Source: Defluviicoccus sp. | GTDB lineage: Bacteria; Pseudomonadota; Alphaproteobacteria; MPNO01 | Length of the DNA stretch: 41,048 bases | Assembly: GCA_028820505.1 (NCBI GenBank) | Contig: JAPPIT010000034.1 | Location: 89,565 to 130,612 of the forward strand | Direction: 5' to 3' | Shown here: positions 2,119 through 18,616 of the stretch, one piece after another | Numbering within the stretch: position 1 is the first letter of the stretch | Layout of the letters: each line of letters opens with the position of its first letter | Notes under the pieces: generated by a model | The model's database searches: none | What the model was told of the DNA's origin: nothing | What the model saw: only the letters and a program-made list of their open reading frames with translations | Made by a program: the position numbers and the translations under genes

Positions 2119-2132
2119 CGCACGCCGCGAAA

Positions 2133-2223: not shown

Positions 2224-2271
2224 CGGCCGCCTGACGTGTAGGCTCGGCGGGAACGCTCAGGGAGCGAATCG

Positions 2272-2952: not shown

Positions 2953-2968
2953 TCTCGAAGGAACAGCG

Positions 2969-3994
2969 ATGAAAGCGATGGTCCTCTACGACCGGGAGAA
3001 GCCGTTTCGGTTGGAGGAGCGGCCGGATCCGCGCCCCGGCCCGGGCGAGGCGGTGATGAAGGTGCACGCGGCCGGGGTTGGACTTACGCTGATCAACATG
3101 CGGCTCGGGCGGATGGGCGGCTCTCTGCCGCGCGTCATGGGCCATGAGCTGGCGGGCGAGATCTTCGAGACCGGCGAGGGCGTGACCGCGATTTCGGCCG
3201 GCGACCGCTGCGCGGTCTATTTCTACCTCACCTGCGGGCGATGCCGCTGGTGCCGCGGCGGTCGCGAGACGCTGTGCGAGAATTTCGCCGGCTATGTCGG
3301 CGGCGACCGGGACGGCGGGTTCGCCGAATATGTATGCCTGCCGGCGGAGAACTTCCTGCCCGTTCCGGAGGGCTTGAGCGACGAGGCGGCGGCGGTCGCG
3401 GCCGATGCCGTCAACACCAACTGGCACTGCATGCGCGAGCGCGCGCGTGTCGGCCCGAACGACACGGTCCTGCTGATCGGGGCGGGCGGCGGCGTCGGCA
3501 TTCACGGCGTGCAGGTGGCGAGGCTGTTCGGCGCGCGGGTGATCGCGGCCGATGTCTCCGACGAAAAGCTCGATCTCGCGCGGCGCTGGGGTGCGGAGGA
3601 GACGATAAACGCGCGCGCGGTCGACGACGTGGCGGAGGAGGCGCGACGGCTCACCGGCGGCACGGGGGTCGATGCCGCGGTCGACTATGTCGGCCACGGG
3701 GAAACCTTCCAGGCGGCGATCGACAGCCTCGCGACGTCGGGCCGCGCCGTAGCGATCGGCGTCGGCACGGGCGAGGCGCGCCTCGATCCGACCGTGCTGG
3801 TCCGGACCGAGCGGATCGTCACCGGTTCGCGACATTCGACGCGCGCGGAGCTGATCGAGACCATGGATATGATGGCGCGCGGCCCGGTGGAGCCCGTCAT
3901 CGGCATGCGCGTGCCGTTCACGGAAGTGGAGACGATCTTCGAGGCGCTCAAGACCGAAACCCTGCTGGGTCGGGGCGCCCTGACCTATCCGTGA
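2969..3994 (+). CDS. Zinc-type medium-chain alcohol dehydrogenase, catalytic Cys position altered
   Basis: A 341-residue MDR-superfamily oxidoreductase predicted to interconvert an alcohol and a carbonyl compound with NAD(P). The structural-zinc lobe is intact (C89, C92, C95, C103 in CGRCRWCRGGRETLC). The Rossmann motif GAGGGVGIHG is at about 171-180, followed by an acidic residue in AADVSDEK, which suggests NAD(H) preference. GHE is present at 58-60. However, the usual GVCxTD segment reads GVGLTL, so the first catalytic-zinc cysteine is replaced by Gly38. The chemistry may therefore differ from classical ADH. The ATG at 2969 follows GAAGGAACAGCG. The last codons and stop (3974-3995) recur as a 22-bp direct repeat at 8627-8648. 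Confidence 0.88.
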   Translation: MKAMVLYDREKPFRLEERPDPRPGPGEAVMKVHAAGVGLTLINMRLGRMGGSLPRVMGHELAGEIFETGEGVTAISAGDRCAVYFYLTCGRCRWCRGGRETLCENFAGYVGGDRDGGFAEYVCLPAENFLPVPEGLSDEAAAVAADAVNTNWHCMRERARVGPNDTVLLIGAGGGVGIHGVQVARLFGARVIAADVSDEKLDLARRWGAEETINARAVDDVAEEARRLTGGTGVDAAVDYVGHGETFQAAIDSLATSGRAVAIGVGTGEARLDPTVLVRTERIVTGSRHSTRAELIETMDMMARGPVEPVIGMRVPFTEVETIFEALKTETLLGRGALTYP

Positions 3995-3995
3995 G
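3974..3995 (+). repeat. 22-bp direct repeat, copy 1 (end of ADH gene)
   Basis: Twenty-two bases starting GGCGCCCTGACC and ending CCGTGAG encode the final GALTYP-stop of the ADH. An identical 22-mer lies at 8627-8648, just upstream of the MetE-like gene. The bases on either side differ, so the match is exactly 22 bp. The two copies flank the block with the enolase-type, amidase and Rieske genes. Confidence 0.85.
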
Positions 3996-4019
3996 CGAAC
4001 GTGCGATGGAGGAACCGAC

Positions 4020-5147
4020 ATGAAAATCGGTCGCGTGGACGCGACGGGGTTACGCGTTTCCGTGCCCTTTCACGATTTCGGAATCGACCGGACGGTCGCG
4101 CTCAACGTCTGTCATGTCGAGGTCGAAACCGACGACGGTCTGATCGGCTACGGGTTCACGGCGATCGTCGAGGGCGAGGTCGTCGCCCATATCGTCAACG
4201 CCGTCGCGGGTCCGCTGATCCTCGGCGAAGATCCGATGGCGAACGAACGTATCTGGGAACGGCTCTACTGGAAGATGAGCCCGCGCGGCCAGACCGGCTA
4301 TGCAAGCCACGCGATCGCCGCGATCGACATCGCGCTCTGGGACATCAAGGGCAAGCACCTGAACCAGCCGGTGTGGCGACTTCTCGGCGGTGCCAGAAAC
4401 AGGGTTCAGACCTACGCGACGTTCGGGTTTCCGGTTTTCGACAGGGAACAGCTCGCCGACGCCGCCAGGACATGGCGGTCGAACGGCCACCGGAGGCTCA
4501 AGATGGTGGTCGCCAACGAAGCGCTGCCGAACCGGGACGCGGTCCGTCCGGTCGATGACGTCATTCGCGAGGACGCCACTCGCGTCCGGGCGGTACGGGA
4601 GGCCGTGGGCGAGGATGTCGATCTGTTCATCGACGCCAATTGCCGGCTCGATCCGTTCCAGGCCCGCAAGCTCGCCAAAATGGTGGAGGACTACGGGGTC
4701 ACGTTTTTCGAGGAGCCGATCACGCACAACGACGTTCGCCAACTGGCGAAACTGCGCCAGTCGACGAACATCCCGCTCGCCGCCGGGCAGAACGAGGGTC
4801 TTGCCTGGCGGTTTCGCGACATGCTGGTGCACGAGGCGGTCGACTGCCTGCAGCCCAATGTCGCGATCGGCGGCGGATTCACCCAATGCGTCAAGATCGC
4901 CGGCATGGCGGCGGCGTTCAACGTCCCCATCTGCAACGGCGGCGCCTGGATGCATCACAACATGCATCTGCACGCGGGCGTGGCCAACGGCACCATGGTC
5001 GAGCACCACTACGTCGCGACCGAGATCTGCAAGCAGATGTACCGGGATCTTCCCGAGCCGGTCGACGGCTGGCTTACCTTGCCCGAGACGCCGGGCCTCG
5101 GTTTCGCACCCGATCTCGACGCGATCCGGGAGCTGCCCAGGACATGA
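4020..5147 (+). CDS. Mandelate racemase / muconate lactonizing enzyme (enolase superfamily) protein
   Basis: A 375-residue enolase-superfamily enzyme with an N-terminal capping domain (about 1-125) and a TIM barrel. It is predicted to abstract a proton alpha to a carboxylate in a Mg2+-dependent racemisation or sugar-acid dehydration. The Mg ligands are visible as D205 (FIDANCR), E231/E232 (FFEEP) and E259 (AAGQNEG). The usual KxK base motif on strand 2 reads R159-L-K161, so one lysine is an arginine. The C-terminal catalytic stretch is unusually His-rich (GAWMHHNMHLHAG). The start is supported by GGAGG 9 bp upstream. It lies 25 bp after the ADH and is convergent with the amidase (7 bp between stops). 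Substrate is not assignable. Confidence 0.9.
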   Translation: MKIGRVDATGLRVSVPFHDFGIDRTVALNVCHVEVETDDGLIGYGFTAIVEGEVVAHIVNAVAGPLILGEDPMANERIWERLYWKMSPRGQTGYASHAIAAIDIALWDIKGKHLNQPVWRLLGGARNRVQTYATFGFPVFDREQLADAARTWRSNGHRRLKMVVANEALPNRDAVRPVDDVIREDATRVRAVREAVGEDVDLFIDANCRLDPFQARKLAKMVEDYGVTFFEEPITHNDVRQLAKLRQSTNIPLAAGQNEGLAWRFRDMLVHEAVDCLQPNVAIGGGFTQCVKIAGMAAAFNVPICNGGAWMHHNMHLHAGVANGTMVEHHYVATEICKQMYRDLPEPVDGWLTLPETPGLGFAPDLDAIRELPRT

Positions 5148-5154
5148 CGGCGTT

Positions 5155-6561
5155 TCAGATGTCGGGGGCGCGGCGATGCCAATCCGTTGCGCGCTGGAAC
5201 GCGGCACCCAGCGAGAAGAGCGTCGTCTCGGCGTACGGCCGCGCCGCCATCTGCATACCGAGCGGAATGCCGTTCGATCCGAAGCCGATCGGGCATGACA
5301 TGACCGGGATTCCAGGCAGGCTGAGCGGCCGCGTAAAGCGGGGATAGGTGGCCCAGAATTCCTCCGCGCCGGCGGGCCGAAGCGGATCGCACTCGGCCAT
5401 CGTCGGAGCGCGGCCGGGATAGGAAGGCAGCACGACCGCATCGACCCGGGAAAACACCGAACGCATGAAATCCTCGATCGTCCCGGTGCGCAGCCGCATC
5501 GCGTCGAGGTAGTCGGCGGCGGAGATCGCAAGTCCCGACTCCAGATGTTCGCGGATATAGGGCGCGTAATCGTCGCCTCTTTCCGTCAGCCTCGACCGGT
5601 GCAGCGCCGCGGCTTCGAACCTCGATATCAGCTCGCACAGGTCGAACATCGGGTCGACTCCGGGAATCTCGATATCGACGATTGACAGGCCCTCGTTTCG
5701 AAACACATCGAGCGCGGCGGAAAGCGCCGTGCGCGTTTCCGGATCGACATCCGGCGCCGATCCGGAATCCGGAACGCCCAGCCTGAGGCCCGCAACGGAT
5801 GCGCCCAGCGCCTCGACATGGTCGGGCACCGGCAGCGCGGAGCAATCGGGGTCCCTCGGATCGGGGCCGGCAACGACATCCAGCATCAAGGCGCAGTCTC
5901 TCACCGAGCGCACGAGCGGTCCGACGGTGTCGAGCGACCAGGTTCTCGGCATCACCCCATGCAGGCTGACGAGGCCCCGGGTCGGGCGTATCGTCGTCAG
6001 CCCGCACAGCGCGGCGGGCCATCTGAGCGATCCTCCGGTGTCGGTTCCGAGCGATCCGTAAACCAGTCGCGCGGCGACCGCCGAGGCGGAACCGCTGGAC
6101 GATCCGCCCGGGGAATAGTCGGTGTCCCAGGGATTGAGACAGTCTCCGAAATGGAGATTGTGTCCGGTTCCTCCGGCGGCGAATTCGCTCATATGCAACC
6201 GGCCGATGTCCACGGCGCCCGCGCGGGCGAGGCGTTCGAGCACGGTGGCCGTCTCGGTTCTCCGGACGCCGTCGAGGATCGTCGACCCGCAGGTCGCAAC
6301 CCCGTTCTCGCGCGAGAACAGGTCCTTGTGCGCCATCGGCACACCATGCAACGGACCCACGACCTCGCCCGTCGACAGCACCTGGTCGGCTTGTCGCGCT
6401 TGCGCCCGGGCGGCATCGGCGTCAAGGGCGATAAAACAGTTGAGTCGTCCGGCCAGACGTTCCGCGCGCGCCAGACAGGCCTCGGTCGCCTCCAGCGAGG
6501 AGATTCGGCGCGAACGGATTTCGACGGCAACCGCGGTCAGGTCGAGATCGGGGATCTCCAT
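5155..6561 (-). CDS. Amidase-signature family hydrolase
   Basis: A 468-residue amidase-signature (AS) enzyme, predicted to hydrolyse an amide to acid and ammonia in the cytoplasm. The Ser-cisSer-Lys triad is readable: K79 in MAHKD, the cis-Ser S154 in SPGGSSSGSASA, and the nucleophile S178 in GTDTGGSLR. The following WPAALCGLTTIRPTRG is the typical end of the signature. The ATG at 6561 is chosen because an upstream extension to 6699 is Arg/Pro-rich and unlike the family. Length fits single-domain amidases; GatA is possible but no gatB or gatC neighbour is seen. It diverges from the Rieske operon over 214 bp that probably holds both promoters. Confidence 0.92.
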   Translation of the reverse strand: MEIPDLDLTAVAVEIRSRRISSLEATEACLARAERLAGRLNCFIALDADAARAQARQADQVLSTGEVVGPLHGVPMAHKDLFSRENGVATCGSTILDGVRRTETATVLERLARAGAVDIGRLHMSEFAAGGTGHNLHFGDCLNPWDTDYSPGGSSSGSASAVAARLVYGSLGTDTGGSLRWPAALCGLTTIRPTRGLVSLHGVMPRTWSLDTVGPLVRSVRDCALMLDVVAGPDPRDPDCSALPVPDHVEALGASVAGLRLGVPDSGSAPDVDPETRTALSAALDVFRNEGLSIVDIEIPGVDPMFDLCELISRFEAAALHRSRLTERGDDYAPYIREHLESGLAISAADYLDAMRLRTGTIEDFMRSVFSRVDAVVLPSYPGRAPTMAECDPLRPAGAEEFWATYPRFTRPLSLPGIPVMSCPIGFGSNGIPLGMQMAARPYAETTLFSLGAAFQRATDWHRRAPDI

Positions 6562-6775
6562 TTTCGTCGGGTTTCTTTTCCGAGGCTTTCGAGGAGCGGC
6601 ATCGGCCGTTCGGGAACGTCTTGGGAGCCCGGCCGGCCGATCCGCGAGCCTACCGCGACCGCGCCGGGAAATCCGCCCATGGGCGGCGGATTTTGACACG
6701 CGTCGATGGCTACACTACGCTTTTTGGCGTGCAATTTCGGCGATGAAGATGCGGGACGGACCGGGAGAAACACCG

Positions 6776-8032
6776 ATGAGTCGATCGAACTTGCCCGCCC
6801 ATGGCGAACCCTGGCCGAAAAACGATCTCACGCGCGTTCCCTACAGCGTCTATCTCGACGAGGAAATTTTCGCGGCCGAGAACGACCTGATATTCCGCGG
6901 CCCGACCTGGAACTATCTCGGGCTCGAATGCGAGGTGCGGGATCCGGGCGATTTCGTAACGACCTTTGTCGGCACGATCCCGGTGGTGCTAAATCGCGCG
7001 AGCGACGGCTCGCTGCATGCGTTCGTAAACCGTTGCGCGCACCGCGGTGCTATGGTGGTACGCGAGAGTCGCGGCCACTGCGACAGCCACACCTGCATCT
7101 ATCACCAGTGGACCTACGACCACGAAGGGCGCCTGATCGGCGCTCCCTACCGCAAGGGAATCAAAGGCAACGGGGGCTTCCCGGGCGACTTCCGGCTCGC
7201 CGATCACGCTCTCGAAAAACTTCGCGTCGAGAGCTATGCGGGTGTCGTCTTCGGCACCTTCCACGAGGAAATGGAGCCGCTGGTCGATTACATGGAAAAG
7301 CCGGTCCGCGACCGGTTCGACGCCCTGTGCGGCCGGCCCTACCGCGTGACCGGTTATCAGCGGCAGATCGTCGAGGGCAACTGGAAGCTCTATTTCGAGA
7401 ACGTCAAGGACTGCTACCACGGCTCCCTCCTCCATATGTTCAACTCCAATTTCGGGTTCTTCCGCTCGACGCAACGCGGAACGTCCGCGATGACGAAGGG
7501 AGGGCTGCATTCGATCCTGACGACCTACGGCAAGACCGACGAGGAGCTAGGCGACACCTTCAAGGACATCGCGACGCACAAGCCGAAATTCACGCTGGAA
7601 GAAACCGGGGTGATAGATGTCGTCCGCGAGCACAGCGATGGAATGGTAACCACCATTCTCACGCTGTTCCCGACATTCGTGCTGGCGCAGATCGGCAACC
7701 ATCTCGGGTTCCGCCACGTGCGCCCGAAGGGACGGGACCGGTTCGAGCTGGTCTGGATCAACTTCGAATACGAAGACGACGACGAGTTTCATCGGGAGGT
7801 CCGGCGCAAGCAGGGCAACCTGCTCGGCCCGTCCGGCTATCTGTCGATGGAGGATGCCGAAGCTCTGGAGATCGCCAACAAGGCGGTGACCGGCGACTTC
7901 GGAAACGGCTACGCCTTCATCGAGATGGGCGGCCGCGGGTCCGACGATCAGGATCATCTCGTCACCGAAGCGCCGATCCGGGGCTTCTGGCGCGGCTACT
8001 GCGACATGATGGGTATTCCCTTCGACGACTGA
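6776..8032 (+). CDS. Rieske non-heme iron ring-hydroxylating oxygenase, alpha subunit
   Basis: A 418-residue catalytic subunit of a Rieske-type oxygenase, using O2 and electrons from a reductase to hydroxylate an organic, often aromatic, substrate. The [2Fe-2S] motif is C87-x-H89 and C107-x2-H110. The mononuclear iron site is DCYHGSLLH (H215 and H220, with N209/D212 nearby). D360 in SMEDAEALE is the likely carboxylate ligand. The start at 6776 has GGGAG nine bases upstream; an in-frame ATG at 6743 is an alternative. Much longer in-frame extensions to 6122 overlap the amidase and are rejected. The beta subunit follows 38 bp later. No ferredoxin or reductase gene is present in the window, so electron partners must be elsewhere. 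Confidence 0.94.
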   Translation: MSRSNLPAHGEPWPKNDLTRVPYSVYLDEEIFAAENDLIFRGPTWNYLGLECEVRDPGDFVTTFVGTIPVVLNRASDGSLHAFVNRCAHRGAMVVRESRGHCDSHTCIYHQWTYDHEGRLIGAPYRKGIKGNGGFPGDFRLADHALEKLRVESYAGVVFGTFHEEMEPLVDYMEKPVRDRFDALCGRPYRVTGYQRQIVEGNWKLYFENVKDCYHGSLLHMFNSNFGFFRSTQRGTSAMTKGGLHSILTTYGKTDEELGDTFKDIATHKPKFTLEETGVIDVVREHSDGMVTTILTLFPTFVLAQIGNHLGFRHVRPKGRDRFELVWINFEYEDDDEFHREVRRKQGNLLGPSGYLSMEDAEALEIANKAVTGDFGNGYAFIEMGGRGSDDQDHLVTEAPIRGFWRGYCDMMGIPFDD

Positions 8033-8070
8033 CGACCGTGTCGAGCCGGCAACAGGTGGAGGCGGCGAAT

Positions 8071-8589
8071 ATGTCCGAGTCTGTCCGGCCCGGCCCGCAA
8101 GAGCCCAGCGATACGGCGGGGGACGGCGCGGTCGAGCGCAAGATCGAAAGGATGTTCTATCTCTACGGCAAGTGCCTCGACGACGACAGGCTCGAGGACT
8201 GGCCCTCGTTCTTCATCGAGTCCGGCCGCTACGTCATTCACCCCAGGGACAATCTCGAGGCCGGACTCGAAGGTTACTGGATCTATTGCGACCACCGCCG
8301 GATGATCCGGGATCGGGTGCTTTCCCTGCGCGAGGCCAATATCTACAACATCCATTACGCCCGTCACCTGATCAGCAACGTCCTGGTGATCGGCCGCGAT
8401 GGGGACGTCCATGACGTTCGCGCCAATTACGTCGTGCTGCAGACCGACAACGAAGGCGTGACCCACAATTTCAGCGCCGGCGAGTATCGCGCCAAGGTGG
8501 TGTTCGAGGACGGCGAGCCCAAGTTCGCCGAAAACATCGTGGTTCCGGACACCTACCTGGTCAAAGCGCTGATCGCGATCCCGCTCTGA
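8071..8589 (+). CDS. Aromatic-ring-hydroxylating oxygenase, beta (small) subunit
   Basis: A 172-residue SnoaL/NTF2-fold protein of the ring-hydroxylating dioxygenase beta-subunit family. It stabilises the alpha3beta3 oxygenase and has no cofactor of its own. Family features are YGKCLDDDRLEDWPSFF near the N-terminus, the RMIRDRV segment, the IHYARHLISNV strand, and the C-terminal ENIVVPDTYLV. The ATG at 8071 has GGAGG eight bases upstream. The adjacent alpha-subunit gene makes the assignment firm. The first 22 residues are Pro/Ser/Gly-rich and probably disordered. Confidence 0.92.
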   Translation: MSESVRPGPQEPSDTAGDGAVERKIERMFYLYGKCLDDDRLEDWPSFFIESGRYVIHPRDNLEAGLEGYWIYCDHRRMIRDRVLSLREANIYNIHYARHLISNVLVIGRDGDVHDVRANYVVLQTDNEGVTHNFSAGEYRAKVVFEDGEPKFAENIVVPDTYLVKALIAIPL

Positions 8590-8626
8590 CTCCGCGTCGC
8601 GCTCTCGGGATCGCCTTCCCGGCTGC

Positions 8627-8648
8627 GGCGCCCTGACCTATCCGTGAG
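8627..8648 (+). repeat. 22-bp direct repeat, copy 2 (orphan ADH 3' end)
   Basis: Identical to 3974-3995, where it encodes the C-terminus and stop of the ADH. Here it sits in the gap between the oxygenase beta subunit and the MetE-like gene with no ADH reading frame upstream. It looks like the scar of an insertion, duplication or deletion. Confidence 0.85.
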
Positions 8649-8661
8649 AGGACCGGACGAA

Positions 8662-9675
8662 ATGCGGAAAATCCACCTTGTCGGCAGCGCTCCCTTCGGG
8701 ACCGCCGAGGAAATGTTTCGTACCGCCGCGGCGCATCTCGGGCCGAATCTCAAACGCCTGCCCGACGGCGAGGTCGGCGAGCGGGACAGCTGGATCAAGT
8801 GGCAGCACGCGCGGATCGGCCGGAGCCCCCAGTTCCGCCTCGTGGACGTCGACCCCGTGTACGTGCCGGTGCCGCCCTACGAGCTGGTCGACGGCGCGAC
8901 TTCGGCCGAGGCGATCGAGCTGCCCGATCTCGGCTACGCCGGGGCGGCGATCGCCTCCTTCGAGACCTTCCGGGAGCTGACGGAGGAGGGCGTCATCCCG
9001 CCCGGGACGCGCTTCCAGGTCGGGCTGCCCACGCCGCTCTCGGTGGCGAGCGCCTATATCGTGCCGGCATCGCGCGACGCGTTCGAAGCGGCCTACACAA
9101 GTGCGCTCGGCGGGCAGCTGGAAAGGATCCTGGCCGCGGTCCCGGCGGCGAGCCTCGCCTTCCAGTGGGAGGCGGCGGTCGAGTTCGCGCTGCTCGAAGG
9201 GCTGTTCCCCAGCCATTTGGGCGACGACATGGCGGGCGCCATCGCCCAACGGCTCGCCGGGCTGATCGACCTGGTGCCGGCCGGCGTCGAGGCCGGCATT
9301 CATCTTTGCTACGGCGATTCCGGACACAAGCACTTCTGCGAACCGGCGGATACGGGTCACCTCGTCGCCGTGGCCAACGGTGTGTCCGCGCGGGCGCGGC
9401 GTTCGATCGACTGGATCCACATGCCGGTGCCGAAGGAACGCGACGACGAAGCGTATTTCGCGCCGCTGGCCGACCTCCGGCTGAAGCCGGGTTGCGAGCT
9501 CTATCTCGGTCTGGTCCACACGACCGGCGGGATCGCGGGCACGCGCCGGCGCATCGCCGCGGCGGAAAGGGTCGTGCGCGATTTCGGCATCGCCACCGAA
9601 TGCGGGTTCGGCCGCCGGCCGCCCGACACCATCCCCGACCTGTTCCGCCAGCACGTCGAAGCGGCGGAGAGGTGA
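8662..9675 (+). CDS. MetE-like (cobalamin-independent methionine synthase / UROD superfamily) protein
   Basis: A 337-residue single-barrel protein of the MetE C-terminal-domain superfamily, whose members use zinc to activate a thiol for alkyl transfer. Zinc-site candidates are H214-x-C216 in AGIHLCYGDSGHKHF and C314 in ATECGFGRRP, spaced as in the MetE HxC...C set. The protein is far too short for full MetE and lacks the N-terminal folate barrel. Relatives include stand-alone methyltransferases and epoxyalkane:CoM transferase, so the substrate is open. ATG 8662 is chosen (GAGAGG upstream); a GTG at 8644 is in frame. The Rid gene follows after 31 bp in the same direction. Confidence 0.8.
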   Translation: MRKIHLVGSAPFGTAEEMFRTAAAHLGPNLKRLPDGEVGERDSWIKWQHARIGRSPQFRLVDVDPVYVPVPPYELVDGATSAEAIELPDLGYAGAAIASFETFRELTEEGVIPPGTRFQVGLPTPLSVASAYIVPASRDAFEAAYTSALGGQLERILAAVPAASLAFQWEAAVEFALLEGLFPSHLGDDMAGAIAQRLAGLIDLVPAGVEAGIHLCYGDSGHKHFCEPADTGHLVAVANGVSARARRSIDWIHMPVPKERDDEAYFAPLADLRLKPGCELYLGLVHTTGGIAGTRRRIAAAERVVRDFGIATECGFGRRPPDTIPDLFRQHVEAAER

Positions 9676-9681
9676 ACGGGG

Positions 9682-10111
9682 CCGGATCGAGCGAGGGAGA
9701 ACCGTCATGGCAAAGCGCGTGCTCAACCCCGCCACGGTGCAGGCCAGGGGGAGCTACAGCCCGGGCTGGGAGGTGTCCGGCGGCAGGGCGGTCTTCGTCG
9801 CCGGCCAGATCCCGTGGGACGAGAACGGCAACACGGTGTGCAAGGGCGACGTCGCCGGCCAGACCCGCCAGGTCTTCGCCAATATCGGGGCGGTGCTCGC
9901 GGAGGCCGGCGGAACCCTCGACGACGTGGTGAAGATCACCGTCTTCGCCGCCGACATCCGTTACCGCGACGCGATCAACCGGGTGCGCACCGAGACCTTC
10001 AGCGAGCCCTACCCGGCGAGCACCCAGGTCGCGGTGGCCTCGCTGGTCGACCCCGAATGGCTGGTCGAGATCGAGGCCGTGGCCTTCATCGAGGACTGAG
10101 ACGCGCCGAAC
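9682..10111 (+). repeat. Long direct repeat, copy 1 (Rid gene plus leader)
   Basis: About 430 bp matching 14958-15387 without gaps. It covers 25 bp of leader including the ribosome-binding region, the whole Rid reading frame, and perhaps about 12 bp after the stop, where similarity fades. Within the 393-bp reading frame I count three differences between copies. The copies are in the same orientation and flank the TRAP/deaminase genes. Confidence 0.92.
9707..10099 (+). CDS. Rid family (YjgF/YER057c/UK114) protein, copy 1
   Basis: A 130-residue trimeric-fold Rid protein. RidA itself deaminates reactive enamine/imine intermediates released by PLP enzymes; other Rid groups have catabolic roles. 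The family core FVAGQIPWDENGNTV, the central NIGAVLAEAGGTLDDVVKIT helix and the C-terminal VEIEAVAFIED are visible. The active-site arginine expected near residue 105 (the PARxxV context) is serine here (PYPASTQV, S105), so archetypal imine deaminase activity is doubtful. It probably shares a transcript with the MetE-like gene 31 bp upstream. The second copy (14983-15375) differs at the protein level only by P101L. Confidence 0.93.
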   Translation: MAKRVLNPATVQARGSYSPGWEVSGGRAVFVAGQIPWDENGNTVCKGDVAGQTRQVFANIGAVLAEAGGTLDDVVKITVFAADIRYRDAINRVRTETFSEPYPASTQVAVASLVDPEWLVEIEAVAFIED

Positions 10112-10140
10112 GGTTCGGCCTGATCGATCGTCGACCGACC

Positions 10141-10214
10141 CTAATCCGCATTTCTGACCAATGGCCGAAGAGGAGCTCGCACCGCGGCCGCCGCTCGTGA
10201 GAAATGCGGACTAA
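10141..10214. mobile_element. MITE-like element, 66 bp, with 4-bp CTAA target duplication
   Basis: Perfect 11-bp terminal inverted repeats TCCGCATTTCT (10145-10155) and AGAAATGCGGA (10200-10210) enclose a 44-bp GC-rich centre with no reading frame. The element is flanked on both sides by CTAA (10141-10144 and 10211-10214). CTAA fits the YTAR 4-bp duplication known for the IS5 group, though that assignment is inference. It lies between the convergent Rid copy 1 and TRAP large-permease genes, and its hairpin could also end transcription from either side. Confidence 0.65.
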
Positions 10215-10239
10215 GCGTTCATCGGGCATGCAGCCGAAT

Positions 10240-11559
10240 TCAACTGCCGAAAAGCAACGCCGGAAGGTAGAGCGCGGTGGGCGGATAGAACGCGACGATT
10301 GCCAGGACGATGAGCTGGCAGATCACGAAGGGCACCACGCCGCGGAACATCTCTCCATAGGTGATTTCGGGCGGCGCGATCGCCCGCAGATAGTATATCG
10401 ACGGAGCCACCGGCGGCGTGAGGTAGGAAGTCTGGATGACGATGCAGACCATTATGCCGAACCATATCGGATCGATGCCCACGCTCCTGATCAAGGGCGT
10501 AAAGATCGGCATGCAGATCAGCACGATCGACACCCAGTCGAGAATGAAGCCCAGCACAAAGAACACCGCGAGCATCAGGATCGTCAGCTCGACGGGGCCC
10601 GGCTTGAAGGTATCGAGAAAAACGCGGATCAGGTCGTTGCCGCCATTGACCATGAAGATCGCGGAGAACATCACGCCGCCCAGCACGGTGAACATGACCA
10701 TCACGTTCACCCGAATGGCGCGTTCGACGACCTGCATGGCGACATCCCAGGACATCCGCCCGTAGGCGACGATAAGCGCGACCGCGCCGAACGCCCCGAC
10801 AGCCGCGGCCTCGGTGGGCGAGGCGATGCCGGCGAGGATGGAACCGAGGACAGCCACGATCAGCACGATCGCGGGGACGAGCGCCACGACGGTGATGCGC
10901 AGCTTTTCCATCGTCGGCACGCGAATCTCGTCGGCCTCGACCGCCGGCCCGTCCTCAGGCCTCAGATGGCAGCGCACCGCGATATAGACGATGAACAGAA
11001 GGGTCATCAGGACACCCGGAATCACGACACCGGCGAACAGGTCGCCGATCGATTCCTCCACCACCGACCCGTAGACCACGACCACGACCGTCGGCGGAAT
11101 GATGGTGCCAAGGGAACCGCCGGCGCAGATCGTCCCCGATATGAGATCGTGCTTGTATCGCTGCTTGATCATCGGCGGGATGGCCATCATGCCGACGACC
11201 GTCTCGACCGCCCCGACGACGCCGGAGCAGGCGGCAAAAATGCTGCACATCGAGATCGACGTCAGCGCCAGCCCGCCGCGCAGCCTGCCGATCCAGAGCT
11301 GGATCGCGTGAAACAGCCGGTCGGCGATGCCGGATCGCTCCAACGCGCTGCCCATGAAGATGAACAGGGGCAACGCCGTCAGAACGTAGTTGGAAGACAC
11401 GTCCTTCAGCCGGCTGAACATCTGGGGGCCGAGCGTGTCGCCGAAAAACCAGTACCCGAACGCGAAGGAGAGCCCGATCATGGCGAACGCCACGGGTATG
11501 CCCATGAACACGAGAACGAACAGTGCCGGGAACATCCAGATCGCGGGAATTTCCAGCAT
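10240..11559 (-). CDS. dctM: TRAP transporter large permease (DctM family)
   Basis: A 439-residue inner-membrane protein with about 12 hydrophobic segments, the ion-coupled translocation subunit of a TRAP importer (family DctM). Diagnostic stretches are LTALPLFIFMG, SMCSIFAACSGVVGAVETVVGMMAIPPMIK, GGSLGTIIPPTVVVVVYG, ASPTEAAAVGAFGA and the C-terminal SYLTPPVAPSIYYLRAIAP. It is last in the amidohydrolase-dctP-dctQ-dctM order on the minus strand, 24 bp after dctQ. The substrate is an organic anion of unknown identity; the deaminase-type hydrolase in the same block is the best clue. Confidence 0.95.
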   Translation of the reverse strand: MLEIPAIWMFPALFVLVFMGIPVAFAMIGLSFAFGYWFFGDTLGPQMFSRLKDVSSNYVLTALPLFIFMGSALERSGIADRLFHAIQLWIGRLRGGLALTSISMCSIFAACSGVVGAVETVVGMMAIPPMIKQRYKHDLISGTICAGGSLGTIIPPTVVVVVYGSVVEESIGDLFAGVVIPGVLMTLLFIVYIAVRCHLRPEDGPAVEADEIRVPTMEKLRITVVALVPAIVLIVAVLGSILAGIASPTEAAAVGAFGAVALIVAYGRMSWDVAMQVVERAIRVNVMVMFTVLGGVMFSAIFMVNGGNDLIRVFLDTFKPGPVELTILMLAVFFVLGFILDWVSIVLICMPIFTPLIRSVGIDPIWFGIMVCIVIQTSYLTPPVAPSIYYLRAIAPPEITYGEMFRGVVPFVICQLIVLAIVAFYPPTALYLPALLFGS

Positions 11560-11583
11560 GACCGCGCCCGCGCCCGACCGCAG

Positions 11584-12117
11584 CTATTCCCTGTCGCCCG
11601 TCGCGCCGCGGCAGGCCGCCAGGACACCGGCCCCGTGCCGCACCGTCTCGACGCAGGCCTGCAGCCAGAGCGCGAACAGCCCGATTGCTAGCGCGGTATA
11701 GAACGGCCAGACGATCGGCGCCCAGGCGCTGACAAGCTCCACCTCGTCGGTGACGAACGCCGAGTAGCTCCGCCGGAACGCTGCGTCGGCGACGATCCAG
11801 ATCGCCGGAACGAACAGGAAGACGTAGGACAGGATATTGGCGATGTGCTGCACCGCCATCGGAAGGCGGGTCGAAAGGACATCGATGCGGACATGCACGT
11901 TCTTCTGCAGCCCGTACGCGCCGGTCAGCATGAAGAGAGCGCCGTGCACCATGAAAGTGATGTCGAAGGCCCAGATCGTGGGTGCATTGAACGCGTAGCG
12001 GGCGACCACCTCGTAGAGCCCGACAAGGATAAGCGCCGGGAACAGGGCGAACCCGGCATAGCAGACGAGGCGCGCCGGGGCATCCGCCCACCTGTTCGCC
12101 AGAGAGAGTATTCCCAT
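11584..12117 (-). CDS. dctQ: TRAP transporter small permease (DctQ family)
   Basis: A 177-residue membrane protein with four hydrophobic segments (about residues 15-37, 50-70, 95-115 and 140-160), the small membrane subunit that pairs with DctM. The region YEVVARYAFNAPTIWAFDI and the LQKNVHVRIDVLSTRLP loop are typical of DctQ. I use the ATG at 12117; an in-frame GTG at 12126 would add three residues, and neither has a strong ribosome-binding site. It lies 57 bp downstream of dctP. Confidence 0.9.
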   Translation of the reverse strand: MGILSLANRWADAPARLVCYAGFALFPALILVGLYEVVARYAFNAPTIWAFDITFMVHGALFMLTGAYGLQKNVHVRIDVLSTRLPMAVQHIANILSYVFLFVPAIWIVADAAFRRSYSAFVTDEVELVSAWAPIVWPFYTALAIGLFALWLQACVETVRHGAGVLAACRGATGDRE

Positions 12118-12174
12118 CGATCGCACCGGGGCGGGCGGGAATAGCGCCTCACCCGCCCGGGTGCACCCCGGCGG

Positions 12175-13236
12175 CTATTGCCGGTCGATGACGAGATATC
12201 TGGAGTTCTTCGACCAGGACTCCTGGAAGGCGTAGAAGCTCTTGGCGAACTTCTCCATCCATGGATTGCCCTTAGCGTTTTGCTCCTTGACCTTGGCGTC
12301 GGCCCATTCCCGTCCGGCCTTTCTCACTGCGTCGATGAACTCGGGGGACAATTCGACCAATTCGTTTGCCGGCGAGGCATCCATTTCGCTCATCGCCCTG
12401 GCGTTGTTGACGTTGAGCGTCGCATAGGAGCGGATCATCACGGAGTCGCAGACCATCTGCATCTTGGTCTGGATATCCCGCGGCAGGGCGTCCCAGCTTT
12501 CTTTTCGCATCAGGACTTCGTACAGCCCGCCCGGCGCGTGAATGCCGGGATAGATGACGTATTTGGCGACCTTCTGGAAGCCGAGGGAGTAGTTTCCGTA
12601 GGGATCGAGGTATTCGGCGCCGTCCACGGCCTTGCGCTCGAGCATGGTGAACACCTCGGGCCCGGGTACGAGCGTCGGCGCGGCGCCCAGCTTGCGCATG
12701 ACGAATGTGTTCGCTCCCGCGGTGCGGTAGCGGAACCCCTTGAGGTCGGCGAGCGATTGCACCTTCTTGTGAGAGTTCGCGAACAACTCCGAACCGATGA
12801 TGCCGCAGAACATCCCGTGATAGCCGAGGCTGTGGCGATAGTCGGTCCACAACTGCTCGCCGCCCCCGCCCAGCACCCAGAGGATCTTGGCGTGAGGCCC
12901 CATCCCGCCGGGAATGTCGCCGATGAACGCCGACGCGGGCAGTTCGTTGATCTCGAAACCGGGATAGTGATAGGCCATGTCGGCCCGGCGATCCTTCACC
13001 GCCCTGTGCGCCTCGAAGATGCTCGCCAGGACGAAAGCGCCGTATGGCTTGATCGCGACGGCGCCGTCGGTGGCGATCCTGACTTTCTCGGTAAAGGCTT
13101 GCGGAAAGAGCTTCCAGGTAACGGTGCCTTCCGGCACGAAGCTCGTCATCTTGAACTGGAACTTGGCCTGAGCGGCCGCGTCCGCCGCCAGGGCGAACGA
13201 AAGCGCTCCGGCCAACGCGATCAGTGATTTACGCAT
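12175..13236 (-). CDS. dctP: TRAP transporter periplasmic solute-binding protein (DctP family)
   Basis: A 353-residue periplasmic receptor of the TRAP importer. A Sec signal peptide (MRKSLIALAGALSFALAADAAAQA) leads into AKFQFKMTSFVPEGTVTWKL. The ligand-binding DctP pattern is present: LKGFRYRTAGANTFVMRKLGAAPT carries the conserved Arg, followed by MLERKAVDGAEYLDPYGNYSLGFQKVAKY. The ATG at 13236 has GGGAGGG eight bases upstream; a GTG two codons earlier is less likely. The aromatic- and Asp-containing pocket motif (AEYLDPYGNY) suggests the subgroup that binds alpha-keto or aromatic acids, but this is a guess. Confidence 0.93.
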   Translation of the reverse strand: MRKSLIALAGALSFALAADAAAQAKFQFKMTSFVPEGTVTWKLFPQAFTEKVRIATDGAVAIKPYGAFVLASIFEAHRAVKDRRADMAYHYPGFEINELPASAFIGDIPGGMGPHAKILWVLGGGGEQLWTDYRHSLGYHGMFCGIIGSELFANSHKKVQSLADLKGFRYRTAGANTFVMRKLGAAPTLVPGPEVFTMLERKAVDGAEYLDPYGNYSLGFQKVAKYVIYPGIHAPGGLYEVLMRKESWDALPRDIQTKMQMVCDSVMIRSYATLNVNNARAMSEMDASPANELVELSPEFIDAVRKAGREWADAKVKEQNAKGNPWMEKFAKSFYAFQESWSKNSRYLVIDRQ

Positions 13237-13275
13237 AGCCACACCCTCCCTTTTCTGGAATTTGACGGTCTGACC

Positions 13276-13385
13276 TCACCCGGCCGGCATACCGCCGCCC
13301 GTCGCGAAGGTCGGTGGGGACGGGTGCCCGGCCACTATCGCATCGCGGGAATAGTAGAGCAGTTCCCGCACCCGGTCGACCGCGG
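13276..13385 (-). pseudogene. Possible frameshifted C-terminal extension of the adjacent amidohydrolase
   Basis: Directly after the amidohydrolase stop, the -1 frame continues open for about 36 codons with protein-like composition (LTAVDRVRELLYYSRD, then IVAGHPSPPTFATGGGM) to a TGA at 13276-13278. Reading through needs one extra base in the run CCCC at the stop (TTC CCC TGA would become TTC CCC CTG ACC). It may be the original C-terminus, displaced by a real or sequencing frameshift, or simply an open frame in GC-rich DNA. Confidence 0.3.
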
Positions 13386-14840
13386 TCAGGGGAACAACTC
13401 GGCCATTCGCCCGGCCAGCGCGTACAGCCGACGATTGCGCTCGAGGATCCGCGACATCATCGGCGCGGCCTCCTCGAGGATGGATTCGGCGTCGAAGGCG
13501 ACAATCCGGCCGTCCTCCACGACCACCCGCCCGTCCACCAGCACCGTTTCCACCGAACTCCCGTTCTCGGCGAAAACCATCTGGCTCGACGGGTCGTTCA
13601 CCGGGACCCACCACGGCGCGTCCAGCCGGTAAAGGACGAGGTCGGCCCGCTTGCCGACCTCTATCGAGCCGACGGTCCCGGACTGCAGGATCGCCGCCGC
13701 ACCCCCGGCGGTGGCCATGCGCAAGACATCGTCCGCTCCGGGCCAGCGCCCGCGTTCGGGGAGCGCCGGCCGGTGCAGGATGGCCGCAAGACGCAGCGCC
13801 TCATGCATGATCAGATTGTCGTTGGTGCCCGCACCGTCGGTGCCGAGCGCGATCTTCACGCCCTTCGCCATCATCGCGGGGATGGGGGCCGTTCCAGCCC
13901 CGATCTTCAGGTTGCTCTCCGGGTTGTGCACCACCACCGACCCGCCGTCCGCGAGACGCCCGATGTCGTCGTCGTCCAGCCAGATCGAATGGGCGAGGGA
14001 GAGCCTGCGGTCGAGCAGACCGAGCCTGTCCAGGTGCTCGACCATCGTGCATCCGTATTTTCGTTGCGCGATCTCCGCCTGAACGCGCGACTCCAGAAGG
14101 TGGGTGTGGATGCCCAGATCGTACCGTTCCGCCAGCTCTCCGCACATGACGAGCGCCGCATCGGAGCAGCGTTCCGGGTTCGACGGGGCAGGGAACACCG
14201 CGAGTCTGCCGTCGAATCCGTGCCAGCGTTGGACCGCGCCGACGGTCAGCGCCCGCACCTCTTCGAGCGGCACCGGCTTCAGGGGATCGAGCGCTTCGAT
14301 CTCCGCCGCCACCTCGCGCGGTATCGCATCGTCGTCGGGCAGGATGTCGGCAAAGGCCGCATCGTAGAACCTGAGGCCGAGCACCGCCCGCATCCCTGAG
14401 TCGCGGTAGGCCTCCATCACCGCATCCACGTCCTCCATCGTGCAGGCCTGACCCGGGAAATGATCGAGAACGGCCGTCGTACCGCTCAACAGCATCTGGA
14501 TGCAGCCGAGCATCGCGCTGACATACACTTCGCGAGCCGTCCGGTGCGCGGTGTAGGCCTGGTTCATCCACATGAATGCAGGGTGGCTGAGGCGGTCGCC
14601 GGTCCCCTGGATCAAATTGGCCGGGGAATGGGTGTGCGCGTTCACGAAACCGGGCGCAAGCAAGCGTCCCCGCCCTTCGATCACGCGGTCGAAACGTCCT
14701 TCTCCGAGACCCGTGTCGGGCCCGATTGCAGAGATTTCGCCTCCGGAAACGACGACGTTGGCCCGGTCGTGAACGACATCGTCCCGATCAAGCGACAGGA
14801 CCATCGCGTCGCGGAGCAGAATGGTTTCTCGGGCGGCCAA
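13386..14840 (-). CDS. Amidohydrolase superfamily deaminase/chlorohydrolase (Atz/Trz, SAH/cytosine deaminase-like)
   Basis: A 484-residue metal-dependent hydrolase of the group that deaminates or dechlorinates N-heterocycles (guanine, 8-oxoguanine, S-adenosylhomocysteine, s-triazines). Ligands are H69 and H71 (VNAHTHS), H247 within IHTHLLE, H284 (LAHSIW) and D335 (LGTDGAGTND), with the C-terminal VGSIEVGKRADLVL typical of the family. The start is a TTG at 14840 preceded by GGGAG at six bases; no better ATG lies upstream. It is the first gene of the minus-strand block with the TRAP transporter (150 bp before dctP). The nucleotide context suggests an imported heterocyclic amine. See the possible C-terminal frameshift. 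Confidence 0.9.
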   Translation of the reverse strand: MAARETILLRDAMVLSLDRDDVVHDRANVVVSGGEISAIGPDTGLGEGRFDRVIEGRGRLLAPGFVNAHTHSPANLIQGTGDRLSHPAFMWMNQAYTAHRTAREVYVSAMLGCIQMLLSGTTAVLDHFPGQACTMEDVDAVMEAYRDSGMRAVLGLRFYDAAFADILPDDDAIPREVAAEIEALDPLKPVPLEEVRALTVGAVQRWHGFDGRLAVFPAPSNPERCSDAALVMCGELAERYDLGIHTHLLESRVQAEIAQRKYGCTMVEHLDRLGLLDRRLSLAHSIWLDDDDIGRLADGGSVVVHNPESNLKIGAGTAPIPAMMAKGVKIALGTDGAGTNDNLIMHEALRLAAILHRPALPERGRWPGADDVLRMATAGGAAAILQSGTVGSIEVGKRADLVLYRLDAPWWVPVNDPSSQMVFAENGSSVETVLVDGRVVVEDGRIVAFDAESILEEAAPMMSRILERNRRLYALAGRMAELFP

Positions 14841-14957
14841 GCCATTCTCCCGTCCTGCGGATCAAGCTTGTCTCTCCGGTGCGCGCACGGCAACCCCGAC
14901 CGGGTCCCGCCGCCGGGGGTGCGCCAGGGCCTGGAACGGGCCAGTATGGCTGTCCGT

Positions 14958-15387
14958 CCGGATCGAGCGAGGGAGACCGATCATGGCAAAGCGCGTGCTC
15001 AACCCCGCCACGGTGCAGGCCAGGGGGAGCTACAGCCCGGGCTGGGAGGTGTCCGGCGGCAGGGCGGTCTTCGTCGCCGGCCAGATCCCGTGGGACGAGA
15101 ACGGCAACACGGTGTGCAAGGGCGACGTCGCCGGCCAGACCCGCCAGGTCTTCGCCAATATCGGGGCGGTGCTCGCGGAGGCCGGCGGAACCCTCGACGA
15201 CGTGGTGAAGATCACCGTCTTCGCCGCCGACATCCGTTACCGCGACGCGATCAACCGGGTGCGCACCGAGACCTTCAGCGAGCTCTACCCGGCGAGCACC
15301 CAGGTCGCGGTGGCCTCGCTGGTCGATCCCGAATGGCTGGTCGAGATCGAGGCCGTGGCCTTCATCGAGGATTGAGCGGCCCCGAAC
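14958..15387 (+). repeat. Long direct repeat, copy 2 (Rid gene plus leader)
   Basis: Partner of 9682-10111. The homology starts abruptly at the CCGGATCGAGCG leader, 25 bp before the start codon in both copies, and fades shortly after the stop. Upstream sequence is unrelated in the two places. The spacing between copies is 5,276 bp. Confidence 0.92.
14983..15375 (+). CDS. Rid family (YjgF/YER057c/UK114) protein, copy 2
   Basis: A 130-residue protein identical to copy 1 (9707-10099) except P101L. The three nucleotide differences are C-to-T changes (codon 101, a silent Asp codon, and the last Asp codon). It has its own ribosome-binding region (GAGGGAGA). As in copy 1, the Arg expected at position 105 is Ser. 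It lies between two minus-strand genes, convergent with the ketopantoate-reductase-like gene (15 bp between stops). A longer upstream in-frame start at 14821 is rejected because homology to copy 1 begins only at the leader. Confidence 0.92.
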   Translation: MAKRVLNPATVQARGSYSPGWEVSGGRAVFVAGQIPWDENGNTVCKGDVAGQTRQVFANIGAVLAEAGGTLDDVVKITVFAADIRYRDAINRVRTETFSELYPASTQVAVASLVDPEWLVEIEAVAFIED

Positions 15388-15390
15388 GCC

Positions 15391-16419
15391 CTAATCCAGC
15401 AGCGAGCGCAACAGATCGGCGTTCGAGGGATCGGGAGCGAGGTCGCCGCGCTCGATCCGCTGGGCGATCTCGACGAGCCGCCGGTTGACCGTGGCCTCGC
15501 CGCCGAGCCGCGCCTGCTCTCCGGTGACGAGGCCGTTGATCTCGTCGATCTCTCCGCGCCGGCCCTTGATCCAGTCCTGGAGGGTCGCGACTTTGGTGTC
15601 CGACAGCGTCCACCCCCTCAGGACGGCATCGAAGAGGACCGTCGCATACTGGTCCGGGTCGTTCACCTCGACGCGCTTGTCGCCGAAAATCGGCACCAGC
15701 TTGTGGCCCAGCGCGACCCCGGTCCGCAGCGCTTCGCGCCCCGCCGCCTTCATCACGTCGTACATGCCGGGCAGCGCCACCGCATCGGCGAGCGGCAGGC
15801 CCAGGATCGACGACGGCAGGAACTCCGCCGCGTTGGCGACGAGCTTCATCCATTTCGCCGAGCGGATGTCGTCGCGGATCTCGACCTCGCCCGTGTGCCG
15901 CAGGACGTCGGCGACCTCCGCCTCCCGGCCGCGCGTCGCCTCGCCATACGGGCCGACGGCGAACCAGGTTCCGTCCGCCGGCGTCTGCCGCACCACCGTT
16001 CCCGGTTCGAACATGTTGGCCGCGACCTCGATCACCGCGCCGAGCGTGCGTTCGGGGCCGACGATCGAGGCCACCGCGTCCATCGTCATGCCGTTCTGGA
16101 GACCGACCACCAGCCCGTCGGCGGCGACCAGCGGCGCGATCAGTTCGCACGCCCATCGCGTGTCGTAGCCCTTGACGCCGATCAGGACGATGTCGAAGGG
16201 CGCGCGCAGCGTCGCCACCTCGCACACATGGAACGCGGCGACCGGCACAGTCAGCGACTCTTCCGGCAATTCGACGCGCAGGCCATGGGCGCGCATCGCC
16301 TCGACATGGGCCGGCCATTGCTCGACGAAGGTGACGTCGAGCCCGGCGTTCACCATGTCGGCGCCGAACCCCGCCGAGGTCGCGCCGGTCCCCACGATCG
16401 CGATTCGCTTGCCCGCCAT
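15391..16419 (-). CDS. Ketopantoate reductase (ApbA/PanE) family protein
   Basis: A 342-residue NAD(P)H-dependent 2-oxoacid-reductase-fold protein. The nucleotide-binding GTGATSAGFGADM is at about 9-21. The family catalytic Lys and Asn appear as SAKWMKLVANAAE (KxxxN), and the QNGM segment carries the conserved Asn. It could reduce a 2-dehydro acid rather than ketopantoate, since the context is catabolic. It has a paralog at 27946-28986 sharing WPAHVEAMR, VGPERTLG and the IAQRIERG-type C-terminal helix. ATG 16419 has GGAGG upstream; the longer frame to 16530 is Arg-rich and rejected. It diverges from the DUF3500 operon over 152 bp. Confidence 0.88.
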   Translation of the reverse strand: MAGKRIAIVGTGATSAGFGADMVNAGLDVTFVEQWPAHVEAMRAHGLRVELPEESLTVPVAAFHVCEVATLRAPFDIVLIGVKGYDTRWACELIAPLVAADGLVVGLQNGMTMDAVASIVGPERTLGAVIEVAANMFEPGTVVRQTPADGTWFAVGPYGEATRGREAEVADVLRHTGEVEIRDDIRSAKWMKLVANAAEFLPSSILGLPLADAVALPGMYDVMKAAGREALRTGVALGHKLVPIFGDKRVEVNDPDQYATVLFDAVLRGWTLSDTKVATLQDWIKGRRGEIDEINGLVTGEQARLGGEATVNRRLVEIAQRIERGDLAPDPSNADLLRSLLD

Positions 16420-16571
16420 GCCGCGCCTCCGCCCCGCCGGTCGTTTCGTCGTCCCCCGATCCCCGCCGCCGCGCCGGCGCAACGGTCGGGACAGGAGGGC
16501 AGATTCGGGAGCATACTCCGTTCGAAGCAAGACCGCTCGCCCCGCCGGAGCGAACCGCAGGAGGCAAGGCC

Positions 16572-17804
16572 ATGACCCATTGGACGGAGTTCGGACTCGG
16601 CAATCTGCCGCCCCTGTCGGCCCGGGAGCGCGTCACCGAGATGCCGCCGCCCCTGCGGGCGCTGATCGATACGTGGCAGGAATTGCTCGCGGAACCGCTC
16701 GCGGGCATCCGATTCGGCCCCGATCTCCGGCCGGGACTGTTTCCGCTGCGCGCGACCGGCGTCAGCACCCGGCCCGTTCTGGATGCGGCGCTCGCATTCC
16801 TCGACGCGCTCACCGCCGAGCAGCGCCAGCGGACGATCTTCCCGATCGCGGCGCCGGAGTGGCGGACCTGGCTCAACATGCATTTCAACCTGTCCCGGCA
16901 CGGGGTGATGCTGGAGGAGCTGCCGCCGGCGACACGCGAACTCGGTCTGGACGTGCTCCGCGCCACCCTTTCCGAACGAGGCTTCCGGCAGGCGCGCGAC
17001 ATCATGCGCATCAACGGTTTCCTCGTGGAGTTGACCGGCCGCACCGGGGAATACGGCGAGTGGCCGTATTTCCTGTCGATCTTCGGGAATCCGTCCGCCG
17101 ACGAGCCCTGGGGCTGGCAGATCGACGGTCACCATCTCATCGTCAACTGCGTCATCGTCGGCGATCAGATGGCGATGACGCCGACATTCATGGGTTCGGA
17201 GCCGTGCGCGATCGACCACGGGAAGCTGGCGGGGGTCCGCGTCTTCGCGACCGAGCAGCGGGCGGGGCTGGACATGGTGCGGAGCCTGCACGGGGAACAG
17301 GCGTCGAAGGCTATCCTCTACCCCTCCCTCCATCCCGACGACCTGCCCGAGGAGCTGGCCAGGCCGTTCGACGGCCGCGTGTTGTCGGGCGCTTATCAGG
17401 ACAATGTCCGCATCGACCATGCGGGGGTCTGCGCCACCGATCTGAGCGACGCGCAGCGGCGGCTTCTCGAGTCTCTCATCGGCGCCTATGTGGGGTGGTC
17501 GCGCGACGGCCATGCCGGCGTGAAGATGGCCGAGGTGAAGAAGCATCTCGACGAAACCTGGTTCGCCTGGATGGGCGCGACCGGCGAAGAGGGCCCGTTC
17601 TACTACCGGGTGCAGAGCCCGGTCGTGCTGATCGAGTTCGACCACCTTCCCGGCATCGTGTTCGACAACCATGTGCCGTCCCACCATCACGTTCATACGG
17701 TGGTGCGAACGCCCAACGGCGGCGACTACGGCGCCGATCTCCTGCGCCAGCACCACGAGCGCTACGACCACTCCGGCGGCCACCACCGGATTCGCCGGGA
17801 TTGA
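16572..17804 (+). CDS. DUF3500 family protein
   Basis: A 410-residue protein I recognise as DUF3500, a family without an established function to my knowledge. The diagnostic segment EPWGWQIDGHHLIVNCVIVGDQMAMTPTFMG at about 178-208 is present, and the C-terminus is strikingly His-rich (VPSHHHVHTVVR, RQHHERYDHSGGHH), suggesting metal binding. No signal peptide is visible. AGGAGG 8 bp before the ATG is a near-perfect ribosome-binding site. It is first in a six-gene same-strand run ending at 22896, with the alpha/beta hydrolase 31 bp downstream. The conserved DGHHL and HHHVH elements would fit a metal hydrolase or oxygenase, but this is inference. Confidence 0.85.
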   Translation: MTHWTEFGLGNLPPLSARERVTEMPPPLRALIDTWQELLAEPLAGIRFGPDLRPGLFPLRATGVSTRPVLDAALAFLDALTAEQRQRTIFPIAAPEWRTWLNMHFNLSRHGVMLEELPPATRELGLDVLRATLSERGFRQARDIMRINGFLVELTGRTGEYGEWPYFLSIFGNPSADEPWGWQIDGHHLIVNCVIVGDQMAMTPTFMGSEPCAIDHGKLAGVRVFATEQRAGLDMVRSLHGEQASKAILYPSLHPDDLPEELARPFDGRVLSGAYQDNVRIDHAGVCATDLSDAQRRLLESLIGAYVGWSRDGHAGVKMAEVKKHLDETWFAWMGATGEEGPFYYRVQSPVVLIEFDHLPGIVFDNHVPSHHHVHTVVRTPNGGDYGADLLRQHHERYDHSGGHHRIRRD

Positions 17805-17835
17805 GCCGCAGCGTTCCCGTCGGCGCAGGCGGCAC

Positions 17836-18570
17836 ATGGCAATTTTCGTCGTAGCCCACGGCGCCTGGTCGGCGGGCTGGGCGTGGCGGAAGATGCACCG
17901 GCCGATGTGTGCGGCGGGGCACGCGCTGTGGACGCCGACCATGACCGGGATCGGCGAGCGCGGCCATCTGGCGGCGAAGACCGTCGATCTCGAAACCCAT
18001 ATCGCCGACATCGAGGCCGTGCTCGAGTTCGAGGATCTCCGCGACGTCGTCTTGGTCGGTCACAGCTATGGCGGCATCGTCGCCACCGCGGTCGCGGACC
18101 GCGCGCGCGACCGCGTCGCCCGTCTGGTCTATCTCGATGCCTTCGTGCCCGAGGACGGCCAGAGCCTCCTCGATCTGGTGCCGCAGGCCACGCGCGAGGC
18201 CATGCGCGCGGCGGCGCGGGACGAGGGCGACGGCTGGCTGGTGCCGCCCAACCCGATCCCGGACGACACCGCCGACGCCGATGCCGAATGGATACGGGAC
18301 CGCCGGATGCCGCAGCCGCTCGCCACCTTCGAGGCGCCGTTGCGGATGACCCGCCGGGCGATCGTCCAGCCGCGCAGCTACATCTACTGCACCCGCGCCG
18401 GCCCCGGCGATCCGTTCCGCCGGTTCGCCGAGCACGCGCGCGCATCGCCGGACTGGACCTGTCACGACCTCGATGCCAGCCACAGCCCGCACGTCACCGC
18501 CCCGGACCGCTTGCGGGAGGTGCTGATCCGGACGCTTGGGGATCGCGGCCGCGGCCCGTTTGCGCGATAG
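17836..18570 (+). CDS. Alpha/beta hydrolase (esterase/hydroxynitrile-lyase-like group)
   Basis: A 244-residue alpha/beta-hydrolase fold protein, predicted to hydrolyse an ester, lactone or amide. The oxyanion turn is HGAWSAGWAW (8-17) and the nucleophile elbow VGHSYGG has S77. The C-terminal catalytic His is in DASHSPHVTAP. The arrangement matches the small salicylate-esterase/EstC-like branch. The ATG at 17836 begins the conserved first beta strand (IFVVAHGAW), and longer in-frame starts would run into the DUF3500 gene. It is the second gene of the six-gene operon. Confidence 0.85.
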   Translation: MAIFVVAHGAWSAGWAWRKMHRPMCAAGHALWTPTMTGIGERGHLAAKTVDLETHIADIEAVLEFEDLRDVVLVGHSYGGIVATAVADRARDRVARLVYLDAFVPEDGQSLLDLVPQATREAMRAAARDEGDGWLVPPNPIPDDTADADAEWIRDRRMPQPLATFEAPLRMTRRAIVQPRSYIYCTRAGPGDPFRRFAEHARASPDWTCHDLDASHSPHVTAPDRLREVLIRTLGDRGRGPFAR

Positions 18571-18616
18571 TCGCCGTTCCCCCGCCCACCGCGGGTCACG
18601 GCATGGAGGGAAGGAC

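Follow-up and report, generated by a model that had tools for sequence, protein, structure and literature searches.

For the T6SS effector-immunity arrays of Vibrio cholerae, the insertion of modules by homology-facilitated illegitimate recombination has been proposed (PMC5361080). Direct repeats around an added stretch are also described for tandem duplication and merodiploidy through repeats during transformation (PMC3784515), and interlocus gene conversion with concerted evolution is described for prokaryotic paralogues that are closer to each other than to their orthologues (PMC6053082). The gene doubled in the locus presented here encodes a Rid protein; in RidA, an arginine is essential for imine hydrolysis, and about 10% of RidA proteins carry serine at the arginine position (PMC4433059).

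The locus lies in a window of 41,048 nucleotides, the whole stretch of DNA that was analysed (G000:C77:89565-130612), which belongs to a draft genome of Defluviicoccus sp. (G000; 5.49 Mb in 228 contigs). Four genomes of the same genus (G001, G002, G003, and G004), all drafts whose records are labelled Defluviicoccus sp. MAGs, served for comparison, and counts are given over three sets: the five genomes of the genus (G000-G004), 27 genomes of the order, and 61 genomes in all. G002 is MPNO01/bin129, with the sponge Aplysina aerophoba as its source (PMC5649159), and bin129 has been placed apart from the sludge clades (PMC9041414). Within the window, neither RNA families at gathering thresholds nor tRNA genes were found. 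Two tandem ORFs in direct repeats lie at 35932-36288 and 36399-36710; their DNA is 80-89% alike, and a weak similarity to CCDC90-like coiled-coil proteins stays under the cut-off of Pfam.

Two Rid genes in direct orientation bracket a TRAP/amidohydrolase block (Table 1). As the preliminary description of this DNA had it, their ORFs are near-identical and differ at three of 393 bases in the alignment: 10008 C/T (P101L), 10051 C/T, and 10096 C/T, the latter two silent, with 303 consecutive identical bases at 9705-10007. That description also let the homology take in 25 bp of leader and then stop. The leaders (9682-9706 and 14958-14982) do align, with three mismatches in 25, all among the six bases preceding ATG; the repeat, however, runs about 13 bases beyond the stop codon, and this tail holds three more mismatches. 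The Rid repeat is the longest in the window, its second copy is recovered by whole-genome search (98% over 431 bases, E 5e-213), and it is genuine, not a chance match. At E <= 1e-30, Rid is found in seven of the 61 genomes, with two full-length copies in G000 only (1/61) and none in G001. The Rid gene of G003 follows a glyoxalase-family gene, and a same-length ORF occupies the same place in G002. G004 has one full and one truncated gene; the latter (L024, 9999-10240) is truncated at its 5' end, retains residues 52-130 at 85% amino acid identity, and lies inside an ORF whose N-terminal part is unrelated. A pattern for Rid relatives matched 12 stretches in viral contigs, none of which was confirmed.

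Table 1. Features of the Rid locus and the adjoining block (window coordinates)
Feature	Position	Strand	Remarks
Left copy of 29-base duplication	3967-3995	+	End of alcohol-dehydrogenase-like gene; 3974-3995 exact
Block 1	3996-8619	n/a	Enolase-superfamily gene, amidase, Rieske dioxygenase alpha and beta; 4.6 kb
Right copy of 29-base duplication	8620-8648	+	Relic of the upstream gene's 3' end ahead of metE-like gene
metE-like gene	8662-9675	+	Older Rid neighbour; 88% amino acid identity in G004 (query 8644-9675)
Repeat copy 1	9682-10112	+	25-base leader, Rid1 ORF 9707-10099, 13-base tail; after metE-like gene; PF01042
Left junction	10113-10238	n/a	Absent from G003 module; holds palindromic element
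Module common to G003 (L126)	10239-14902	-	90.7% identity; includes about 60 bases upstream of amidohydrolase
DctM	10240-11559	-	
DctQ	11584-12126	-	
DctP	12175-13242	-	
Amidohydrolase	13386-14840	-	Amidohydro_1
Right junction	14903-14957	n/a	Common to neither G003 nor G004
Repeat copy 2	14958-15388	+	25-base leader, Rid2 ORF 14983-15375, 13-base tail; before ApbA
ApbA/PanE-like reductase	15391-16530	-	Older Rid neighbour; adjoins Rid in G004

An empty version of the site is present in G004, on a contig of 4894 bases (L018, JAJDVM010000321.1) that carries g2272, an alcohol-dehydrogenase-like gene, the metE-like gene, a single Rid, ApbA on the other strand, and DUF3500. Its positions 1-1745 match window 2251-3995, 1717-3204 match 8620-10107, and 2779-4754 match 14958-16937, the latter two overlapping by 426 contig bases at Rid, i.e., by one Rid unit. 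Two blocks of the window are missing there, 3996-8619 and about 10113-14957, and doubled G004 sequence flanks each of them. The block between the Rid copies had been proposed to be inserted, and a comparison of related genomes for one versus two Rid copies and for the block agrees: G004 lacks the block, and the same neighbours there enclose a single Rid. Relative to G004, 10113-14957 is therefore inserted, and Rid stands doubled, one copy on each side. From one genome with the empty site and one with the bracketed block, we infer that the module was gained. At the loci examined in G001, G002, and G003, the metE-like gene is not beside Rid and Rid is not beside ApbA, Rid being absent or elsewhere.

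Some further observations concern these neighbours. The metE-like gene has no Pfam or NCBIfam match, and its name reflects what we take to be a resemblance to metE. ApbA has a paralogue at 27946-28986, about 47% identical and in opposite orientation, which accounts for the inverted repeat 16292-16404/27958-28070. G003 lacks the alpha/beta hydrolase gene that stands between DUF3500 and SnoaL (window 16443-18602), and G002 is without DUF3500 and most of the adjoining alpha/beta hydrolase gene (same interval).

The module also occurs at a second site. In G003, a contig (L126) carries amidohydrolase-DctP-DctQ-DctM, which aligns with the window over 4664 bases, just past a tRNA-Phe gene (4065-4140) and ahead of a cupin gene; G002 has these tRNA-Phe and cupin genes too, with an interval of about 0.59 kb and no module between them. 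Since the same module stands elsewhere in G003 and G002 is module-free there, the TRAP/amidohydrolase module is mobile. Compared with the G002 interval, L126 4065-8941 is a variable tRNA site. No direct repeats at the two ends of the G003 insertion were found among the matches listed. The amidohydrolase orthologue is found in G000 and G003 (92%), that is, in two of the 27 genomes of the order, the next best match reaching at most 53%, and the module is in two and absent from three of the five genus genomes. Together with the empty G004 locus, this supports the expectation that the block varies between relatives. Two other suggestions of the preliminary description found no support. In G003, which is the one further carrier among the 27 genomes of the order, no Rid gene adjoins the module; Rid is thus not part of the mobile unit there, and the Rid copies are not supported as its vehicle. 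Amplification finds no second copy of the block in G000, where the next amidohydrolase is 49% identical.

By Pfam, the block encodes DctM, DctQ, DctP, and an amidohydrolase, and all four genes are transcribed opposite to Rid, as had been noted. The amidohydrolase had been called a deaminase. Its family and its nearest models, which are deaminases, accord with that name, but its best NCBIfam model, 5'-deoxyadenosine deaminase, gives 286 bits against a cut-off of 522, below every cut-off shown, and the name hence stands as a family guess only. Judged from these gene families, the module may serve the uptake and first breakdown of a nitrogen-containing solute. A transposon or a composite or integrative element was considered and rejected, as no transposase, integrase, or recombinase is among the four block proteins (Pfam). 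Between Rid1 and DctM, at about 10141-10213, lies a palindromic element with the inverted ends CCGCATTTCT/AGAAATGCGG. It looks like a MITE-type repeat and has partial matches at 15 other places in G000, one in G001, and one in G002, some copies being longer with further palindromes inside; no match was found in G003 or G004.

The adjoining block 1 is missing from G001 and G004, where the same neighbours stand without it. It is flanked by a direct duplication of 29 bases, 22 of them exact between the window copies, and the first junction is intact in G001 (L125) too, with a 29-base overlap. Because a relic of the upstream gene's end precedes the metE-like gene and the junction is intact in two relatives, the best reading of block 1 is a gain. 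A search of nine genomes with its Rieske alpha protein gave no relative above 45% in the eight besides G000. As a control on such junctions, sequence from G000 (659 kb) and parts of the four other genomes were compared, giving 245 kb of pairwise alignment at an identity of at least 82%; many contigs were read in part, and only indels leaving <=60 bases were counted. Among the resulting 20 rows, the two blocks account for -29 twice and -426, three rows (-420, -407, and -250) were set aside as matched by Rid itself only, and the 14 other gene-scale indels have gaps of -3 to +55. None of these 14 sampled indels in the genus has a duplication like those of the two blocks. With the cut-off at 76% or more, in a comparison of less sequence, large-overlap rows appear at 76-81% (L164/L219 both ways, L226/L209), which were read as paralogues and are gone at 82% or more. 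Two unrelated modules about 1 kb apart with host duplications of 22-29 and about 430 bases, and none at the 14 others, would fit a locus-specific process in which the edge of the target gene is copied as a module is added and every neighbour is left whole; we regard such a process as a long shot.

The age of the Rid copies has to be read with their flanks. Nei-Gojobori dS between Rid1 and Rid2 is 0.021, compared with 0.22-0.25 to G004, 0.34 to G002, and 0.36 to G003, while the module genes reach 0.28-0.34 against G003. A maximum likelihood tree groups Rid1 with Rid2 (support 92; deeper nodes 39-67). In leader and tail together, six of 38 bases mismatch, compared with three of 393 in the ORF (p 2e-5, Fisher). 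When the ratio of flank to ORF rates to G004 (1.8 or 3.7) is allowed for, the test gives p 5e-4 or 0.013, and when counted as four events of seven, about 0.01 (0.011) or 0.08, figures that rest on 38 bases. Since leader and tail differ far more than the ORF, later gene conversion is favoured, and the Rid ORFs were likely homogenised after the flanks had diverged. Gene conversion, previously offered as one option, is thereby strengthened, with both copies in one genome only; a recent date for the insertion itself is not supported, because the identity of the ORFs may date only the last conversion. Over the 13 bases before ATG, Rid2 has 0/13 differences to G003 and 3/13 to Rid1, and Rid1 is nearer to G004 (2 differences). 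The first 8 bases of the Rid1 tail equal the G004 tail, and the Rid2 tail fits neither G004 nor G003. With a G003-like leader and a tail like neither on the same copy, no single clean model covers both ends.

We assign a probability of roughly 0.6 to the reading that the module was inserted at the Rid gene of a G004-like locus by Rid-anchored recombination with an illegitimate join, followed by conversion. The older order would have been metE-like, Rid, ApbA, and DUF3500, as in G004. The mobile TRAP/amidohydrolase module would then have entered at Rid, leaving Rid with its leader and tail on both sides and the neighbours unbroken, and the flanks suggest that the ORFs were afterwards kept alike by gene conversion or converted once. 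Of the possible ways of joining, the likeliest would be recombination anchored in Rid on one side and an illegitimate join on the other, a route by which DNA is added and the anchor is repeated. No donor with Rid beside the module was found.

Integration of a circle that held one Rid and the module, recombined with the resident Rid in the Campbell manner of a translocatable unit, would equally give direct repeats at both ends and intact neighbours, and it predicts the donor 5' end in the right copy, where the G003-like leader does lie, the G004-like one being in the left. The tails, however, run the opposite way, the G004 type being that of Rid1 and not of Rid2. Moreover, the module of G003 has no adjoining Rid, and an ORF dS of 0.36 would be expected from a G003-type donor instead of 0.021, so that conversion is needed here as well; circle integration appears unlikely. 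Insertion at a G004-like Rid also has to be weighed against loss, in which an ancestor already had the block with a Rid copy on each side and the block was deleted in G004 as the two copies recombined, an outcome of which would be exactly a single Rid flanked by the same neighbours. The preliminary description had pointed to the repeats as sites of such loss. No loss was seen. Against it, the tail beside ApbA in G004 is of the Rid1 type at three sites, a type not expected after a simple Rid x Rid deletion, the module is absent in three of the five genus genomes and elsewhere in a fourth, and block 1 next door speaks for gain. We consider this history improbable. There is likewise little to favour an assembly error, in which a metE-Rid-ApbA chromosome, as in G004, and a module from elsewhere or from other strains were misjoined in a draft of many contigs through an exact repeat longer than the usual short read, as the differing leaders, tails, and three ORF sites mark both copies as assembled from distinct sequences, and the alternative pairing needs a 5.3-kb circle, for which no replication gene was seen in the block.

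The locus offers a clean comparative case of the way in which this lineage, which includes sponge symbionts, builds large catabolic gene sets from small mobile modules: one TRAP/amidohydrolase set stands at two sites, each in a different species, and either site also has a module-free version. It further cautions against taking near-identical bracketing genes as the mark of a recent event, since the flanks can be of greater age than the ORFs would suggest.

When compared to known systems, the Rid protein shares with RidA the PF01042 domain (113 bits, Pfam), and its solved relatives include YabJ and PH0854. Unlike RidA, it has serine in place of the catalytic arginine (Arg105 in E. coli TdcF); all seven full-length Rid copies aligned have this serine, in a PAST motif, against PAR in four solved relatives. 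Its imine deaminase activity is therefore doubtful on this replacement. The direct repeats that flank the added stretch resemble those of tandem duplication or merodiploidy during transformation; in the account of that process, the repeats pre-exist and the stretch between them is doubled, whereas here only one copy of the stretch exists and it is the repeat that is new (PMC3784515). As in the interlocus gene conversion and concerted evolution reported for prokaryotes, the paralogues are closer than the orthologues and their likeness is concentrated in the ORF, but with both Rid copies in one genome only, the likeness need not reflect long-lasting concerted evolution (PMC6053082). In the V. 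cholerae T6SS arrays, as presented in PMC5361080, old and new immunity genes differ, whereas here the anchor is doubled near-identically and no donor with the anchor was found. As in those arrays, a foreign module has been added at a conserved anchor with the resident gene kept beside it, and the locus makes a good, if ordinary, instance of modular growth of a genome.
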